Origin: Candidatus Tectomicrobia bacterium | Lineage (GTDB): Bacteria; UBA8248 | DNA: 64,000 bases | NCBI GenBank assembly: GCA_016192135.1 | Contig: JACPUR010000023.1 | Location: 44,084-108,083, forward strand | Reading direction: 5' to 3' | In this document: positions 5,849 through 62,997 of the stretch, one piece after another | Numbering within the stretch: position 1 is the first letter of the stretch | How the letters are laid out: every line of letters begins with the position of its first letter | Translations under genes and position numbers: made by a program | The notes under the pieces: generated by a model | Told to the model about the DNA's origin: nothing | The model's input: only the letters and a program-made list of their open reading frames with translations | Databases searched by the model: none

Positions 5849-6914
5849 GCGCCGCCGCGTCGCCGCCTCCGCCCTGGCCGACTTCGCCGCCCGGGCCATC
5901 CGCACCCTGGGCGCGCCCGGGGACATGGCGCGCACGGCGGCCGAGGTCCTGGCCGCCGCCGACCTGCGGGGCATCTTCAGCCACGGCGTGGCGGGGGGGA
6001 CGGGCCTCATGGAGCTGGTCGAGCGCACGCGGGCCAAGGCCATCGACCCGGCCGCCCGGCCCGAGGTGAAGCGCCGGGAGGACCAGGCCGCCGCCTCGAT
6101 GGACGGCCGGGGAGGCATGGGGCCCGTCGCCGCCATGCAGGCCGCCCACTTGGCGGGGGACCTGGCCGAGCGCTACGGGGTGGGCCGGGTGCACGTCCGC
6201 AACGCCAACCACTTCGGGGCCGCCTGCGTCTACGTCGAGGCCCTGGCCGCCCGGGGCCTCGCCGCCCGGGCCACCTGCACCTCGGGGGCCTGGCTCGTGC
6301 CCTACGGGGGGGAGCGCGTCCGCCTGGGCACCAATCCCATCGCCTGGGTGATGCCCCTCGGGGAGGGCGAGGAGCCCATCGTCATCGACATCGCCACCAC
6401 CCAGCGGGCGGTGAGCCCGGCCATCCGCGCCGCCCGGGCGGGGGACCCCCTCCCGCCGGACTACATGGTGGACGAGCGCGGCGCCCCGCTCGAGGGCGTG
6501 GTCCCCTACGAGAGGCTCCTCAAGGGCTCGGTGCGCCCCCTGGGCGGGGAGCGCTTCGGCTACAAGGGCTCGGGCCTGAACATCCTGGTGGAGCTCGACA
6601 ACGTGATGGGCGGGGGCTCGACGGAGCGCATCCCCAACATGCGCGAAACCCCGCACAGCCGGGTCTCCCAGACCTTCGAGGCCTGGCGGGTCGACGTGCT
6701 CTATCCCGAGGCCGAGGCCCGCCGCCGCCTGGCCGAGACGGTGGCCGACATCCGGCGCTACGGCGGCCCCGGGATGCTCATGCCGGGGGAGCGCGAGGCG
6801 CGTCACAAGGCCGACGCCCTCCGGAACGGAATCCCCTACGAGCCCTCCCAATGGGAGACCCTGCGCCGGCTGGGGGAGGAGACGGGGGTCGAGCCGCCGG
6901 GGCCGGTGGGATGA
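5841..6914 (+). CDS. Ldh2 family malate/L-lactate/ureidoglycolate dehydrogenase
   Basis: A 357-residue NAD(P)-dependent 2-hydroxyacid oxidoreductase of the Ldh2/MDH2 family. Recognisable parts are the A-D-L-R-G-I-x-S-H-G segment near residue 38, the conserved V-x-N-A-N-H-F-G-A-A catalytic segment near 130, and L-G-T-N-P-I-A near 165, all typical of the family. The GTG start lies within the end of the kinase-like gene, so the two are translationally coupled. The substrate is uncertain (malate, lactate, sulfolactate or ureidoglycolate). Confidence 0.87.
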   Translation: MPERRRVAASALADFAARAIRTLGAPGDMARTAAEVLAAADLRGIFSHGVAGGTGLMELVERTRAKAIDPAARPEVKRREDQAAASMDGRGGMGPVAAMQAAHLAGDLAERYGVGRVHVRNANHFGAACVYVEALAARGLAARATCTSGAWLVPYGGERVRLGTNPIAWVMPLGEGEEPIVIDIATTQRAVSPAIRAARAGDPLPPDYMVDERGAPLEGVVPYERLLKGSVRPLGGERFGYKGSGLNILVELDNVMGGGSTERIPNMRETPHSRVSQTFEAWRVDVLYPEAEARRRLAETVADIRRYGGPGMLMPGEREARHKADALRNGIPYEPSQWETLRRLGEETGVEPPGPVG

Positions 6915-48570: not shown

Positions 48571-49233
48571 TCACGCGGCGGCGAACATTTCCTTGAGGCC
48601 GGGGGCGGCGCGCAGGGGGGCGGCGGTCTTCCCGCGGACCTCCTTCTCGGAGACGCCGGGGGCCAGCTCGCGGAGGAGGAGGCCGCCCTCTCCCACCTCG
48701 ATGAGGGCCAGGTCGGTGACGATGAGGTCCACCACTTCCTTCCCGGTCAGGGGGAGGGCGCAGCGCTCCTTGATCTTGGGCTCCCCCTTCCGGGTCACGT
48801 GCTCCATGGTGATGATGACCTTCTTCGCCCCCACCACCAGGTCCATGGCCCCGCCCGGGCCCGAGATCTTCTGCCCGGGCACGGCCCAGTTGGCGAGGTC
48901 GCCGTTCGCGGCCACCTCCATGGCACCCAGGATGGTGACGTCCACGTGCCCGCCGCGCACCATGGCGAAGGAGGTGGCGCTGTCGAAGAAGGCGGCGCCG
49001 GGGAGGATGGTGACCGTCTCCTTGCTCGCGTTCACGAGGTCGGGGTCCTCCTCCCCCTCGTAGGGATAGGGCCCCACCCCCAGCACCCCGTTCTCGGAGT
49101 GGATGGTGACGCCCCAGCCGGCCGGTATGTAGTTCGCCACCAGGGTGGGGATGCCGAGACCCAGGTTCACGTAGCCCCCCCGCGGCACCTCCAGCGCCGC
49201 CCGGCGCGCGATCTCCTCCCGCGTGAGCGCCAT
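48571..49233 (-). CDS. scoB: 3-oxoacid CoA-transferase subunit B
   Basis: A 220-residue beta subunit of a family I CoA-transferase. Motifs: V-N-L-G-L-G-I-P-T near residue 23, the catalytic Glu in S-E-N-G-V-L-G near 46, and [14 protein letters not shown] near 103. With subunit A it activates acetoacetate or another oxoacid with succinyl-CoA. Start ATG 49233, 11 bases after subunit A. A longer open frame upstream is out of frame with subunit A and not coding. Confidence 0.93.
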
Positions 49234-49244
49234 GGCCTCTCCCC

Positions 49245-49961
49245 TCAGCCCTTCCGGCCCGCGCGGGGCCGCGTGGCGCGGATCTCGATGGGCTTCTCGC
49301 GGTTCTCCCCCACCACGACCCGCTGCACGAAAATCCCGGGGGTGTGGATCCGCTCCGGCGGGAGCGCCCCCAGGGGGACGATCTCCTCCACCTCGGCGAT
49401 GGTGAGGTCCGCCGCTGTCGCCATCACGGGGTTGAAGTTCCCGGCGCTCAGGCGGTAGACCAGGTTCCCCGCCGGGTCGGCCCTCCACGCCTTGACGAAG
49501 GCCACGTCCCCCCGGACGGGCATCTCCAGGATGTACTCCCGCCCGCCCATGACGCGGCTCTCCTTGCCCTCGGCCACCACGGTGCCCGCCCCGGTCGGGG
49601 TGAAGAAGCCCCCGATGCCGGCCCCGCCCGCGCGGATGCGCTCGGCGAAGGTGCCCTGGGGCACGAGCTCCAGCTCGATCTCCCCCGCCATCACCTGGCT
49701 CTCGTAGGCCTTGCAGGCCGGGCCCACGCGCGAGGCGAGCATGGCCCTCACCTGGCGGCGCTCGAAGAGGAGGCCCGCCCCCCAGCCGTTCAGCCCGCCC
49801 GCGTTGCTCACCAGGCGGAGGCCCGCCACGTCCTCGCGCTCGCTCAGGGCGCGGCAGAGGTTGTGGGGCATCCCGCAGATGCCGAAGCCCCCGACGAGCA
49901 GGGTGATTCCGGAGCGGAGGTCCGCCACCGCCGCCTTCGAGCTGGGGAAGACCTTGGACAA
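49245..49961 (-). CDS. scoA: 3-oxoacid CoA-transferase subunit A
   Basis: A 238-residue alpha subunit. Motifs: [12 protein letters not shown] near residue 22, Q-G-T-F-A-E-R-I-R near 102, and the [11 protein letters not shown] segment near 117. The start is TTG at 49961 with GAGGAGAGGA upstream. Forms an operon with scoB. Confidence 0.93.
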
Positions 49962-51628: not shown

Positions 51629-52231
51629 TCAGGAATATCTCTTCGTGTAGTCGAGCTTCACCGTCCGCGCGGCGTAGCGCCCCGCGCCCTCCCCGACCGG
51701 CTCGAAGACGCTGCACTTCTCCAGGTCGCGCGGGTAGACGTGCACCGAGACCGCCGTCTCCCCGAGGGGGTTCGTCACCTGGTGGATGTCGGCGCAGGCG
51801 CACACGCACTCGGGCTCCCCCGCCTTGGGGGTATGGGGTGCCTCCCGGCGCAGCGACACCTCCCCGCCCGCCCGCGCCTCCCTCTCGGTCGAGAAGTTCA
51901 CGACTTCCAGGCCCCCCTCGATCATCCCCACCATCCCCCAGGTGCCGTCGTGGTCGTGGATGGGGGTGCCCTGGCCCGGCCGCCACACCATGGCCGCCAC
52001 CACGAAGCGGTCCCCCGGGTCGCGGTGGAGGAGGTGGCGCGCGTAGCCCTTCTCCGAGGGCGTCCGGGCCGCCTCCGGCAGCCAGTCCCGCTCGATGAGG
52101 AGCCTTCTCAGCGCCGGCTCCGCCGCCCGGATGAAGTCCCGGCCCCGGAAGCCCTGCTCATAGAGGAATTCCAGCGCCCCCACGAAGCGGGCGAAATGCG
52201 CGGACTTGGGCGCTGCGACGGCGGTCGTCAT
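51629..52231 (-). CDS. Cysteine dioxygenase-like cupin protein
   Basis: A 200-residue cupin of the cysteine dioxygenase type I family. After a helical N-terminus the metal motif reads P-I-H-D-H-D-G-T-W-G near residue 91; the third His is in A-D-I-H-Q-V-T-N near 150; a late Y-P-R-D-L segment follows. It probably oxidises a thiol (cysteine, mercaptopropionate or another) with iron and oxygen. Start ATG 52231 follows GGAGGGCCC; an ATG 14 codons earlier is a weaker choice. Confidence 0.82.
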   Translation of the reverse strand: MTTAVAAPKSAHFARFVGALEFLYEQGFRGRDFIRAAEPALRRLLIERDWLPEAARTPSEKGYARHLLHRDPGDRFVVAAMVWRPGQGTPIHDHDGTWGMVGMIEGGLEVVNFSTEREARAGGEVSLRREAPHTPKAGEPECVCACADIHQVTNPLGETAVSVHVYPRDLEKCSVFEPVGEGAGRYAARTVKLDYTKRYS

Positions 52232-52323
52232 GGGAGGGCCCTCCGGAAGGCGCGCGGCGGGATATGAAACCACGGCGAGGGGGGAGGTGTCGAGGAGGGG
52301 GAAATTTACCGCAGGACCTGTAT

Positions 52324-54724: not shown

Positions 54725-55552
54725 TCAGGGGCTCTCCCCGGGATAGGCGTGCCGCCGCCAGCGGTAGCCGGGCTCGAGGAGGGCGCCGGGCGACCGGGCG
54801 CTCTCGAGGAGGCCCAGGGCGTCGAGAAAAACCTGTCGCTGCTGGGCCGGCCGGCCCGGCTCGCCCAGGGGATGGCCGAGGGGCCAATGGAGAAAGACGG
54901 CGCGGGGGGGCCGCACCTGGAGGGTGATCTCCCGGACGATGCTGAGGGAGACGGTGGGGATGCCCGCCGCCTCGATGGCCCGCGCGACCAGACCCACGGT
55001 CCGGTTGCAGAGGCCTCAGGCGGGGGCGAGGAGGACGGCGTCGGCCCCGGCCTCGGCCAGCCTCCGGGCGGCGGCGGGGGCGGTCTCCCGAATGAGGCGT
55101 TCGACCAGGGGGCCGTCCACGTGGCCCATGAAGCCCAGGTGGAGGGGGGCCGGTCCGGCGACGCGGCCCTCGCGGGCGAGCTCCTCCAGGCGGTCGAGCG
55201 GCAGGATGACGTTGAGGTCCCGGTCGGCGTCGCGGTGGTCGTAGTAGTCGTGGGTGATGACGAGGTTACCGCGGGGCGTGCCGGCGGGGATCTCCCGGAA
55301 GGTGGGGTCGCCGTCCGGGTTCCGCATGTCGAAGGGGGGCTGGCTCCGGAGGTGGACGCCCCCCGTGGTGACGAGGGCGACGCGGCACCGGGTCAGGGGC
55401 TTGGCGAGGGGCGCCCACGGATCGGCCTCCCCCGCGCCTTCTTCCGCGCCTTCTTGCGCGAACCGGCGGCCCCGGGCCCAGCGGTCCACCAGGCCCGGGA
55501 ACATGCCCAGCAGGCGGGCGGCGAGGCGGTTCCTGGCGCGCCGCAGATCCAT
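54725..55552 (-). CDS. GrdB-like selenoprotein (glycine/sarcosine/betaine reductase selenoprotein B family), TGA read as Sec
   Basis: A 275-residue protein if the single in-frame TGA at 55016-55018 is read as selenocysteine (residue 179). The motif is U-G-L-C-N-R-T, a U-x-x-C-x-x-T redox site, preceded by A-D-A-V-L-L-A-P-A and followed without frame change by V-G-L-V-A-R-A-I-E-A-A-G-I-P-T-V, the conserved family sequence. Upstream are family blocks C-R-V-A-L-V-T-T-G-G-V-H, T-H-D-Y-Y-D-H-R-D-A-D and G-F-M-G-H-V-D-G-P. A SECIS-like hairpin follows the TGA. Relatives include the substrate-binding subunit B of glycine reductase, but this short form occurs without the rest of that complex; a thiol-redox or reductase role is inferred. 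It lies 33 bases after doxX. Confidence 0.88.
54977..55018 (-). promoter_or_regulatory. Bacterial SECIS element
   Basis: In the mRNA, 11 bases after the UGA begins a 7-bp hairpin: CCGGACC (55004-54998), loop GUG (54997-54995), GGUCUGG (54994-54988), with one G-U pair. An outer GGCC/GGCC pairing (positions 1-4 and 36-39 after the UGA) can extend the stem. The loop starts 19 bases after UGA and begins with G, as known bacterial SECIS models require. It would bind SelB. Confidence 0.8.
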
Positions 55553-55585
55553 GGCGCCGCTTTCTCCTCCAGCCGGGCCGGCGGG

Positions 55586-56047
55586 TCAGTCGAGGGAGAT
55601 GCGGCCGCCCTTGCGGGCGGTCCGCAGGGTGAAGCGGCCTCCCCCGATGAGAAGCGAGGCGGCCGTCGCGAGGAGCAGGAAGAGCGAGTACTCGAAGCCC
55701 GCGGCCGCGGCGCGGCCGTCCGGGAGGGCCATCCCCCGCATGAAGAAGCCCTGGTTCAGGTGGACGAACAAGAACGCGCCCGCCATGATGGGGATGTTCA
55801 GCAGGGCGCCGATCCGGGGGTAGAGGCCGATCAGCAGCATGAGCCCGCCGGCGCCGTGGCCCAGGACGATGTACCAGGCGGAGAGCTCCGGCAGCGGCAC
55901 CATGTACCGGGTGGCGTTGGCCTGGGCCAGGGCGGGGATCCCGATGACGGCCCCGGCGTAGTAGGCGTGCATGAGGTAGTAGGCGCCGAGCGCCAAGCGG
56001 AGGAGGGTGGCCCCCAGCTCCCGGGCGAAGGTCCAACCGTTGTTCAT
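55586..56047 (-). CDS. DoxX family membrane protein
   Basis: A 153-residue inner-membrane protein with four hydrophobic helices (about 12-32, 55-75, 80-100, 118-138). Family marks: L-L-R-L-A-L-G-A-Y-Y-L near the start and G-G-L-M-L-L-I-G-L-Y-P-R-I-G-A near 68. DoxX proteins are linked to thiol/thiosulfate redox and quinone reduction. ATG 56047 follows GGAGGAGAG. It precedes the selenoprotein gene by 33 bases, so a membrane-redox partnership is plausible (inference). Confidence 0.85.
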   Translation of the reverse strand: MNNGWTFARELGATLLRLALGAYYLMHAYYAGAVIGIPALAQANATRYMVPLPELSAWYIVLGHGAGGLMLLIGLYPRIGALLNIPIMAGAFLFVHLNQGFFMRGMALPDGRAAAAGFEYSLFLLLATAASLLIGGGRFTLRTARKGGRISLD

Positions 56048-56133
56048 CCGTCGCTCTCCTCCGAGGGTTGGAGAGGGGGGCGGATCTGGATCCGGCGCAA
56101 CAACCGGCCGAATAGAGTCCCGCCCCATATTGA

Positions 56134-56293: not shown

Positions 56294-56764
56294 ATGACGC
56301 CCCGGCCCTTCGGATGGAAGCCGCTCGGCCTGGTTCTCCTGGCCCTGGCGCTCATCGCCGGGACGGGGGCCCCCGCCGGTGCGGCCGCCCCCCTGAACCT
56401 GGCCCGCGGGGGCCTCGCCCTGCACGGCTACGACCCCGTCGCCTATTTCGAGGAAGGGAAGCCGGTGAAGGGACAGGCCGCGCACAGCCTCTCCTGGATG
56501 GGGGCCACCTGGCGCTTCGCGAGCGACCCGAACAAGAAGGCCTTTCAAGCCGGGCCGGAGCGCTACGCGCCGCAGTACGGAGGCTACTGCGCCTGGGCGG
56601 TGAGCGAGGGCTACACGGCGGACATCGATCCGAACGCCTGGAGGATCGTGAACGGGAAGCTCTATCTCAACTACAGCAAATCCATCCAGCGGAGGTGGGA
56701 GAAGGACATCCCCGGCCACATCGCCAAGGCGGACCGCAACTGGCCCGGGGTGCTGAAGAAGTAG
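56294..56764 (+). CDS. Exported YHS-domain protein
   Basis: A 156-residue protein with a signal peptide (core L-G-L-V-L-L-A-L-A-L-I, cut near A-G-A-A-A at 31). The YHS-like region has L-A-L-H-G-Y-D-P-V-A-Y-F near 40, G-A-T-W-R-F-A-S near 70, and Q-Y-G-G-Y-C-A-W-A-V near 93. YHS domains often go with metal or thiol proteins; here it is probably periplasmic. It is upstream of TVP38 and a MerA-like flavoprotein, with a 65-base gap. Confidence 0.85.
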   Translation: MTPRPFGWKPLGLVLLALALIAGTGAPAGAAAPLNLARGGLALHGYDPVAYFEEGKPVKGQAAHSLSWMGATWRFASDPNKKAFQAGPERYAPQYGGYCAWAVSEGYTADIDPNAWRIVNGKLYLNYSKSIQRRWEKDIPGHIAKADRNWPGVLKK

Positions 56765-60258: not shown

Positions 60259-61617
60259 CTAGCGGGAGGCGAACTCGTCGCAGATGGCGGCCATGAACTT
60301 GGCCCCCTCGGTCAGGTGCTCGACCTTGAGGTTCTCGTTCGCGCTGTGGGTGCGGGCGGTGACGTAGCCCACCCCGGTGCTCACCAGGGGTATCCCCAGC
60401 TCCCGGATGACCATCCAGGTGGGCGTCCCCCCGATCCCGAAGGGGTTGATGACCGGATCCTTTTCATACAGGTGATGCGAGGCCCGCGCGCAGGCCTCGA
60501 CCAGGGCGCTCTCCGGGTCGCTCTTGGCCGGGTAGCTCTGGAAGAGCTTGCGCACCTCGATGTCCTTGAAGCCGTGCTTGTCGAGGTGACGGCGGATGCA
60601 GGCCATGATCTTGTCCGGGTCCTGGTTCACGACGAGGCGGAAGTCGAGCTTGGCCCGGGCCCGGCCCGAGACGATGGTCTTGACCCCCTCCCCGGTGTAG
60701 CCCGCATCGAAGCCCGCGATGTTGAAGGAGGGCACCGTGAGGTGGCGCCGGGGGAGCTCCGCGTCCGGCAGGTCCAGCACAAAGCGGCGCAGAGAGAACT
60801 TGCGCTTGCGCTCCGCGCCGCTGTAGGGCGGGATGCGCCGCAGCAACCCCTCCTCCTTCGGGGTGAGGGGCGCCACGTCGTCGAGGAAGCCCTCCACCTT
60901 CACATTCTCGTCTTCGTCCTTCATGGTCGAGAGCGCCCACACCAGCCGCCAGGCGGCGTTCTCGTAGATCTGGCCGTTGCTGGAGTGGAAGTCCACGTTG
61001 GCGGTGCGGCAGGTGAGCTCCAGGTAGAGGAGCCCCTTGTTGCCGAGGTCGAGGACGGGCACGTCCTCCCGGAAGGTGTCCTCCCAGATGCAGCCGTCCG
61101 CCGCGAGGAGAGCCTTGTGAGCCGGGATGAAGGCTTCGAGCGAGGGGCTGCCGATTTCCTCCTCGCCCTCGATGATGTACTTGACGTCGCAGGGCAGCTC
61201 CCCGCGCACGGCGAGCAGGGCCTCGAAGGCCGCGAGGCGGCTGATGATGTTCCCCTTGTTGTCGGTCGAGCCCCGGGCGATGACGTGGCCGTCCACCACC
61301 CGGGCCTCGAAGGGCGGGCTCGTCCACTCGCTCAGCGGCTCGGCGGGCTGGACATCGTAGTGGTTGTAGAAGAGGAGGGTCTTTCGCCCGGCGCCCGGAT
61401 GGCGCCCGGTGACGATGGGGTGCCCCTGGGTCCGGTGGATCGTGGCCTGGAAGCCCGTCCGCTCCAGCCTGCGCTTCACCAGGTCCGCCATCTCCTCGAT
61501 GCCCGTGTGGGTGGTCGAGACGCTCGGCTGGCGGCAAAGCTCCTGCAGGTCGGCGACGATTTGATCCGCGTTCTTGTCGATGTGGGCGAAGACGGGCGCC
61601 AGGTCCCTGGAAGCCAC
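60259..61617 (-). CDS. M20 family dipeptidase, downstream copy
   Basis: A 452-residue di-zinc peptidase of the carnosinase/PM20D type. Motifs: F-Y-N-H-Y-D-V-Q-P near residue 84, G-S-T-D-N-K-G near 115, E-G-E-E-E-I-G-S near 150, and a bottom-domain H near 430. It starts with GTG 61617 after GGAGGAC. It is a close copy of the next gene upstream, with long identical DNA stretches. It cleaves dipeptides or N-acyl amino acids. Confidence 0.92.
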   Translation of the reverse strand: MASRDLAPVFAHIDKNADQIVADLQELCRQPSVSTTHTGIEEMADLVKRRLERTGFQATIHRTQGHPIVTGRHPGAGRKTLLFYNHYDVQPAEPLSEWTSPPFEARVVDGHVIARGSTDNKGNIISRLAAFEALLAVRGELPCDVKYIIEGEEEIGSPSLEAFIPAHKALLAADGCIWEDTFREDVPVLDLGNKGLLYLELTCRTANVDFHSSNGQIYENAAWRLVWALSTMKDEDENVKVEGFLDDVAPLTPKEEGLLRRIPPYSGAERKRKFSLRRFVLDLPDAELPRRHLTVPSFNIAGFDAGYTGEGVKTIVSGRARAKLDFRLVVNQDPDKIMACIRRHLDKHGFKDIEVRKLFQSYPAKSDPESALVEACARASHHLYEKDPVINPFGIGGTPTWMVIRELGIPLVSTGVGYVTARTHSANENLKVEHLTEGAKFMAAICDEFASR

Positions 61618-61632
61618 GGGCGGTCCTCCGGA

Positions 61633-62997
61633 TTACAGAGCGGCGAATTCCTCGGTGATGGCGGCCATCCACTTGGCGCCGTCGATCAGGTCCGCGATCT
61701 TCAGGTTCTCGTTCGCGCTGTGGGTGCGCGAGGTGATGCGGCCTACCCCCGTCGAGGCCAGCGGGACCCCCAGGTGGCGCAGCACAATCCAGGTGGGCGT
61801 GCTGCCGTTTCCGAAGGGGTTGATGATGGGGTCCTTCCCGTAGAGCCGGCGCGAGGCCGCCTCGCACGCCCGCACGATTGAGGCCTCGGGGTCGCTCTTG
61901 GCCGGGAGGGAGCGGAAGAGGATATTGGCCTCGATGTCCGCGAAGCCGTGCTTGTCGAGGTGGCGCCGGACGCAGGCGAGGATCTTGTCCGGGTCCTGGT
62001 CCACCACGAGGCGGCAATCCACCTTGGCCCGGGCCCGGCCCGATACGATGGTCTTGACCCCCTCGCCGGTGTAGCCCGCGTCGAAGCCCGCGATGTTGAG
62101 GGTGGGCATGGTCAGGTGGCGCCGGGTGAGCTCCTTGTCGGAGAGGCCGAGGAGGTTGCCCCGCAGCTCGAACTTCCTCACCCGGTCGGCGAAGTTGTAG
62201 GGCTTCATCCGATCGACCATGGCCTCTTCCTTGGGGCTCAGGGGCTTCACGCCGTCGAGGAAGCCCTCGACCTTGATGTTCTCCTTCTCGTCCTTCATGG
62301 TCGAGAGCGCCCACACCAGCCGCCAGGCGGCGTTCTCGTAGATTTGGCCGTTGCTGGAGTGGAAGTCCACGTTGGCGGTGCGGCAGGTGAGCTCCAGGTA
62401 GCAGAGGCCCTTGTTGCCCAGGGAGAGGATGGGGATGTCCTCCCGGGTGGTGTTGTCCTCCCAGACGCAGCCCTCGGCCGCGAGGAGCGCCTTGTTCGCG
62501 AGGACGAAGTCCTCGAGCGAGGGGCTTCCGATCTCCTCTTCGCCCTCGATGAGGTACTTCACGTTGCAGGGGAGCTCCCCGCGCACGGCGAGCAGGGCCT
62601 CGAAGGCCGCGAGGCGGCTGACGATGTTCCCCTTGTTGTCGGTCGAGCCCCGGGCGACCACGGCGCCGTCCACCACCCGGGCCTCGAAGGGCGGGCTCGT
62701 CCACTCGCTCACCGGGTCGGGGGGCTGCACGTCGTAGTGGTTGTAGAAAAGGAGATTCTTGGAGTTCTTGCCGGGCAGGAGGGCCGTCACGATGGGGTGG
62801 CCCGGGGTCCGGTGGAGGGTGGCCTGGAACCCCGCCCGCTCCAGGCGGCGCTTCACCAGGGCCGCCATCTCCTCGATGCCCGTGTGGGTGGTCGAGACGC
62901 TCGGCTGGCGGCAGAGCTCCTGCAGGTCGGCGACGATTTTCCCGGTGTTGCGCTCGATGTGGGCGAAGACTTCCTTGAGATCCGGATTCCCGGCCAC
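61633..62997 (-). CDS. M20 family dipeptidase, upstream copy
   Basis: A 454-residue paralogue of the previous gene with the same metal motifs (F-Y-N-H-Y-D-V-Q-P, G-S-T-D-N-K-G, E-G-E-E-E-I-G-S). Differences cluster in the lid domain (about 200-300) and the C-terminus. GTG start 62997 follows GGAGGGAGCC. The 15-base gap and high similarity show tandem duplication. Confidence 0.92.
   Translation of the reverse strand: MAGNPDLKEVFAHIERNTGKIVADLQELCRQPSVSTTHTGIEEMAALVKRRLERAGFQATLHRTPGHPIVTALLPGKNSKNLLFYNHYDVQPPDPVSEWTSPPFEARVVDGAVVARGSTDNKGNIVSRLAAFEALLAVRGELPCNVKYLIEGEEEIGSPSLEDFVLANKALLAAEGCVWEDNTTREDIPILSLGNKGLCYLELTCRTANVDFHSSNGQIYENAAWRLVWALSTMKDEKENIKVEGFLDGVKPLSPKEEAMVDRMKPYNFADRVRKFELRGNLLGLSDKELTRRHLTMPTLNIAGFDAGYTGEGVKTIVSGRARAKVDCRLVVDQDPDKILACVRRHLDKHGFADIEANILFRSLPAKSDPEASIVRACEAASRRLYGKDPIINPFGNGSTPTWIVLRHLGVPLASTGVGRITSRTHSANENLKIADLIDGAKWMAAITEEFAAL

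Follow-up and report, generated by a model that had tools for sequence, protein, structure and literature searches.

A predicted PrdB-like selenoprotein gene with an in-frame UGA followed by a SECIS-type hairpin

Results

The window, by which we mean the whole stretch of 64,000 nucleotides analysed, carries on its minus strand a PrdB-like gene crossed by one in-frame UGA that is probably read as selenocysteine (Sec), a rare amino acid (Table 1). This UGA is codon 179 of 275 and lies in the context LLAPA-U-GLC-NRT; the gene also terminates at a TGA. Standard ORF calling over the same interval returns a 178-aa ORF before the UGA and a 90-aa ORF after it, and automatic annotation would split or miss the gene and its relatives. 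The initial annotation had described a minus-strand frame running across a single TGA, and its coordinates and the sizes of both fragments proved accurate. Elsewhere in the window, an uninterrupted plus-strand frame (56294-56764) encodes a member of the YHS domain-containing (seleno)protein family (NF041384, 172 bits) that has no TGA and carries Cys in the motif GYC, and two similar M20-type peptidase genes stand in tandem on the minus strand (60259-62997).

Table 1 Features of the PrdB-like selenoprotein locus, in window coordinates
Feature	Position	Strand	Remarks
PrdB-like selenoprotein gene	54725..55552	-	275 codons including Sec, then terminal TGA stop
In-frame UGA, predicted to be read as selenocysteine (Sec179)	55016..55018	-	Conserved TGA, SECIS, machinery
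Cys182, UxxC partner of Sec179	55007..55009	-	Column invariant in 64 relatives
Bacterial SECIS-type hairpin, loop GUG (54995-54997)	54987..55005	-	18 nt between UGA and loop
GGAGGAG, Shine-Dalgarno-like	55564..55570	-	11 nt before ATG 55550-55552; read from sequence
DoxX-family membrane protein	55586..56128	-	PF07681; 33 nt upstream, same strand
Cysteine-dioxygenase-type (thiol dioxygenase) gene	51629..52273	-	PF05995
CoA-transferase A and B subunits	48571..49961	-	PF01144

Conservation of the UGA was assessed in 80 relatives from one-genome-per-species contigs, using peptide patterns that leave the Sec site uncovered. TGA occupies the Sec site in 79 of them, and the sources span Candidatus Tectimicrobiota, Nitrospinota, Nitrospirota, Thermodesulfobacteriota, Myxococcota, Chloroflexota, Acidobacteriota and other groups. 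An alignment of homologues had been expected to show U or C at this position; U is what we find, but C is not the pattern, the clade having U almost always. The remaining relative, L127, has GGA (Gly) at the Sec codon (6502-6504), which may be a point mutation, an error or a loss of function; its hairpin is intact and its genome carries selA. Pro177, Cys182 and 15 further columns are invariant across 64 aligned proteins. Separately, the PrdB-like protein of L160 / L187 (G188:C23) reads U-P-L-D, with Asp in place of the partner Cys.

The coding frame also persists beyond the UGA. The initial annotation had considered that homologues might end before this site; instead, the next in-frame stop (TAA, TAG or TGA) lies 86-129 codons past the UGA in all relatives but L094 (318 codons). 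In comparisons with same-genus relatives, changes at third codon positions dominate both upstream of the UGA (44 and 47, against 22/15 and 28/18 at the other positions) and downstream of it (27 and 28, against 11/8 and 11/8). Because this codon-position pattern is alike on the two sides, coding constraint continues past the UGA.

Directly after the UGA lies the hairpin ACCGGACC-GUG-GGUCUGGU, which has 8 bp with the outer A-U pair and 7 without it. It fits the SECIS rule of a small G-containing apical loop directly after the UGA (rule as in PMC1088965), and no SECIS family in Rfam matched the region. Its presence, the GUG loop and the 7 bp (outer A-U uncounted) had been annotated correctly, whereas the UGA-loop spacing, given as 19, is 18 nt. 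RNA folding of 49 nt gave -27.7 kcal/mol (z = -3.67), and when the 45 nt after the UGA were recoded synonymously 2000 times, just 16 recodings folded with an energy as low. Three other in-frame 45-nt segments of this G+C-rich gene fold more stably, so folding energy by itself is not decisive, and the energy test taken alone amounts to moderate evidence. It is conservation and position, not energy, that decide for the hairpin.

Covariation was scored in an 83-sequence alignment for the hairpin pairs 14-21 with 25-32, with shuffles as the control. Standard pairs occupy 93.9% of the hairpin cells, the covariation score is 0.250 compared with 0.163 +/- 0.007 in shuffles, and both sides have changed in 30 cells compared with 7.9 in shuffles; two of the five measures (pairs with double changes and number of pair types) are not clearly above the shuffles. 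The best SECIS control is the comparison of internal and terminal TGAs of the same genes. Counting hairpins at the right distance that have a stem of at least 6 bp and a G at loop position 1 or 2, we find one after 71 of the 80 internal TGAs and after just 2 of the 46 terminal ones; the terminal TGA of the window gene has none.

Much of the selenocysteine machinery that the initial annotation had proposed to look for (selA, selB, selC and selD) is present. In the window's genome, selB (389 bits) adjoins selA (540 bits) on contig C15 and a tRNA-Sec with anticodon tca (74.8 bits) lies on C28, whereas no selD over cut-off was found in the 97%-complete assembly of 41 contigs. A selD-like match on C13 is ThiL, beside ThiE, and not SelD. 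Among 18 family genomes, 14 carry selD, each with its own TGA, and the membrane-protein gene that adjoins selD in two same-genus relatives is also absent from the window's genome. The loss of this neighbour, together with the presence of selD in most relatives, suggests an assembly gap, which is the likely explanation; a real deletion could be another. In a tally over 80 sampled genomes, selA over cut-off occurs in 35 of 37 genomes with the TGA form, compared with 16 of 35 genomes without the family.

An ordinary stop codon, or a sequencing or assembly error, would leave a pseudogene or two short ORFs, in agreement with the 178- and 90-aa ORF calls and with a selD not found in the assembly. 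We regard this as extremely improbable, given that 79 of 80 relatives, independently assembled and drawn from several phyla, share the TGA, that SECIS hairpins follow internal and not terminal TGAs, that coding constraint carries on past the TGA and that Sec machinery is encoded in the genome. Together with the covariation, these observations bear out the original reading of the codon as Sec with a SECIS hairpin, and, to judge from the sequence, selenocysteine would be inserted in vivo.

The family assignment needed revision. The best NCBIfam match is PrdB (TIGR04483), almost full-length at 171 bits, which is below the equivalog cut-off of 300. The GrdB models TIGR01917 and TIGR01918 score about 50-52 bits and cover the C-terminal half alone (for TIGR01917, 52 bits compared with 602 for full-length GrdB, with a match to 220-402 of 431). 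Pfam GRDB (PF07355) scores 26.5 bits, over its gathering score of 22, and the UGSC family (seleno)protein model NF041046 matches the window protein weakly near the Sec motif (E = 0.039), with matches at or below 1e-3 in two relatives. In a 112-row tree that contains no bona fide PrdB, the window gene joins two genus relatives (100/99); these three join five Nitrospinota-type rows and L021 (100/100) inside an 80-row clade (95/95), and the GrdB rows form one separate clade (100/99). The initial label 'GrdB-like' is therefore replaced here, PrdB being nearer in score (171 compared with about 52 bits) and the GrdB rows standing apart in the tree.

The genome's other TGA-bearing paralogues are placed elsewhere in the tree. 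Both are PrdB/GrdB-type selenoprotein genes with one in-frame TGA, one at G000:C21:4227-4907 (in L174; LFPV-U-PLCMRS) and the other at G000:C30:61029-61640 (in L175; LCPV-U-PNCTRA). The genome in which selD was not found still carries three TGA-bearing PrdB/GrdB-type genes.

Could the protein be a GrdB-type subunit of glycine, sarcosine or betaine reductase that works via a separate GrdA? PF07355, TIGR01918 and TIGR01917 do match as well, and GrdA with an in-frame TGA occurs in eight other family genomes (G001, G002, G006, G008, G009, G011, G013 and G015). We nonetheless find this very unlikely, as the GrdB models are matched in their C-terminal half alone, the GrdB rows stand in a clade apart, relatives own a separate, longer GrdB beside grdA, and GrdA (PF04723) is absent from the window's genome. 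A genuine D-proline reductase, in which the protein would be the PrdB subunit in the conversion of D-proline to 5-aminovalerate, is suggested by TIGR04483 as the best family, matched over almost the whole length. We consider it highly improbable because the score stays well under the cut-off, the pyruvoyl subunit PrdA has no match in the window's genome and is over cut-off in none of the other tested genomes that carry the family or its close kin (a few relatives give weak, fragmentary matches, all far under cut-off), and PrdB is over cut-off in 0 of 386 sampled genomes. With neither GrdA nor PrdA in the genome, the earlier statements hold, both that this form occurs outside the glycine reductase complex and that its reaction is open.

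AlphaFold2, run on a 64-row alignment with Sec179 modelled as Cys, predicts a single confident domain through the UGA (pLDDT 92.5, pTM 0.92), in which a strand (172-176) is followed by Sec179 and a helix (182-195). In this model the strand-Sec-helix layout would suit a reactive selenolate at the helix start. A PDB sequence search returned no relative, a profile search for solved relatives returned chance-level or biased rows alone, and Foldseek gave no match with E <= 0.001. LacI/PurR-type domains from a second fold search (Z 7.7) represent a common arrangement that is uninformative on function.

Around the gene, the DoxX gene is found directly upstream also in two other genus members examined, and in Nitrospinota-named relatives the DoxX homologue lies farther from the selenoprotein gene. 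In eight other family genomes the selenoprotein gene is followed by a cysteine-dioxygenase-type gene and an alpha/beta hydrolase, with CoA-transferase A/B next in seven of the eight. The window has the same genes in the same order about 2.5-7 kb downstream, with an Hsp20 gene and small ORFs between the selenoprotein and thiol dioxygenase genes. Outside the family, the upstream neighbours include cytochromes c, P-type ATPases, rhodaneses and others, and a search for an operon partner conserved across phyla found none. One of the 52 upstream neighbour genes of the relatives is selA itself.

The recurrent order of selenoprotein, thiol dioxygenase, hydrolase and CoA-transferase A/B in several family genera, along with the PF05995 and PF01144 matches, would be explained if the protein and these nearby enzymes worked together in a pathway that breaks down organosulfur compounds or thiols. 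Such a pathway is doubtful, however, since the block takes in the unrelated mreB in some genomes and may be plain synteny, its gaps are not operon-tight, and other neighbours are found outside the family. Because of mreB in the block, and because the conservation is limited to the family, we do not rest the function on the neighbourhood, and the thiol dioxygenase and CoA-transferase neighbours are a weak functional link.

Discussion

We conclude with high confidence that the locus encodes one selenoprotein of the PrdB/GrdB superfamily, with Sec179 specified by a SelB hairpin and with likely UxxC chemistry. The protein is very probably no D-proline reductase, because no pyruvoyl subunit (PrdA) is encoded in the genome, although it is homologous to the selenoprotein subunit of that enzyme. 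In the mechanism that we propose, SelB with Sec-tRNA(UCA) would bind the GUG-loop hairpin just after the UGA, Sec would be put in at position 179, and the ribosome would then run on as far as the terminal TGA, after which no hairpin of this kind follows. The predicted position of Sec179, at the end of a beta strand, before a helix and in U-x-x-C, makes selenolate/selenenylsulfide chemistry likely: the selenolate of Sec179 would be the nucleophile attacking the substrate, release would occur as a selenenylsulfide with Cys182, and a thiol donor would re-reduce the selenenylsulfide. We infer that the protein is likely a UxxC selenol-thiol reductase.

For most holders of the PrdB-like family the label 'proline reductase' is a misfit, because no tested family genome has PrdA over cut-off and PrdB is over cut-off in none of the 386 sampled genomes. 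We see evenly balanced chances that the widespread clade of stand-alone PrdB-like proteins, in which Sec is nearly universal and PrdA is lacking, represents a selenoenzyme family in its own right, acting on a substrate of its own, and that surveys have mislabelled it as proline reductase.

Among the known systems, the UGSC family (NF041046) shows a weak likeness round the Sec motif, far weaker than that of PrdB, and its motif differs. GrdB (PF07355, TIGR01917/TIGR01918) shares a homologous C-terminal half and Sec in UGxC, but the window protein is shorter, falls in a separate clade, has UGLCNRT and not UGTCTRC, and comes from a genome without GrdA. Clostridial PrdB, the 26-kDa D-proline reductase subunit (TIGR04483), is matched over nearly its full length and shares the UxxC motif with Sec (here UGLC); the window protein differs in falling under the cut-off (171 compared with 300 bits) and in the lack of PrdA in its genome. 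D-proline reductase acts on a pyruvoyl-proline adduct, for which Sec attack and a selenoether intermediate have been proposed (PMC10298544).

PrdB-type UxxC selenoproteins are already known, having been described in 2005-2008, and the window gene is a further member. These reports give 42 such sequences from the Sargasso Sea (PMC1088965), PrdB-type proteins from Global Ocean Sampling (PMC2398784), and selenoproteins named 'proline reductase' from Geobacter uraniireducens and Anaeromyxobacter (PMC1794560). As described there, the metagenome, Geobacter and Anaeromyxobacter proteins likewise have UxxC and a SECIS-like hairpin right after the UGA. The surveyed PrdB-type selenoproteins are mostly from outside Stickland fermenters, and the relatives of the window gene include Geobacteraceae, such as Geomonas limicola (L108), and many Deltaproteobacteria; its own lineage is not named in the available survey text. 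A further difference lies in the residue used, in that the clade of the window gene has almost only Sec, whereas the Global Ocean Sampling set comprises 235 Sec and 110 Cys forms.
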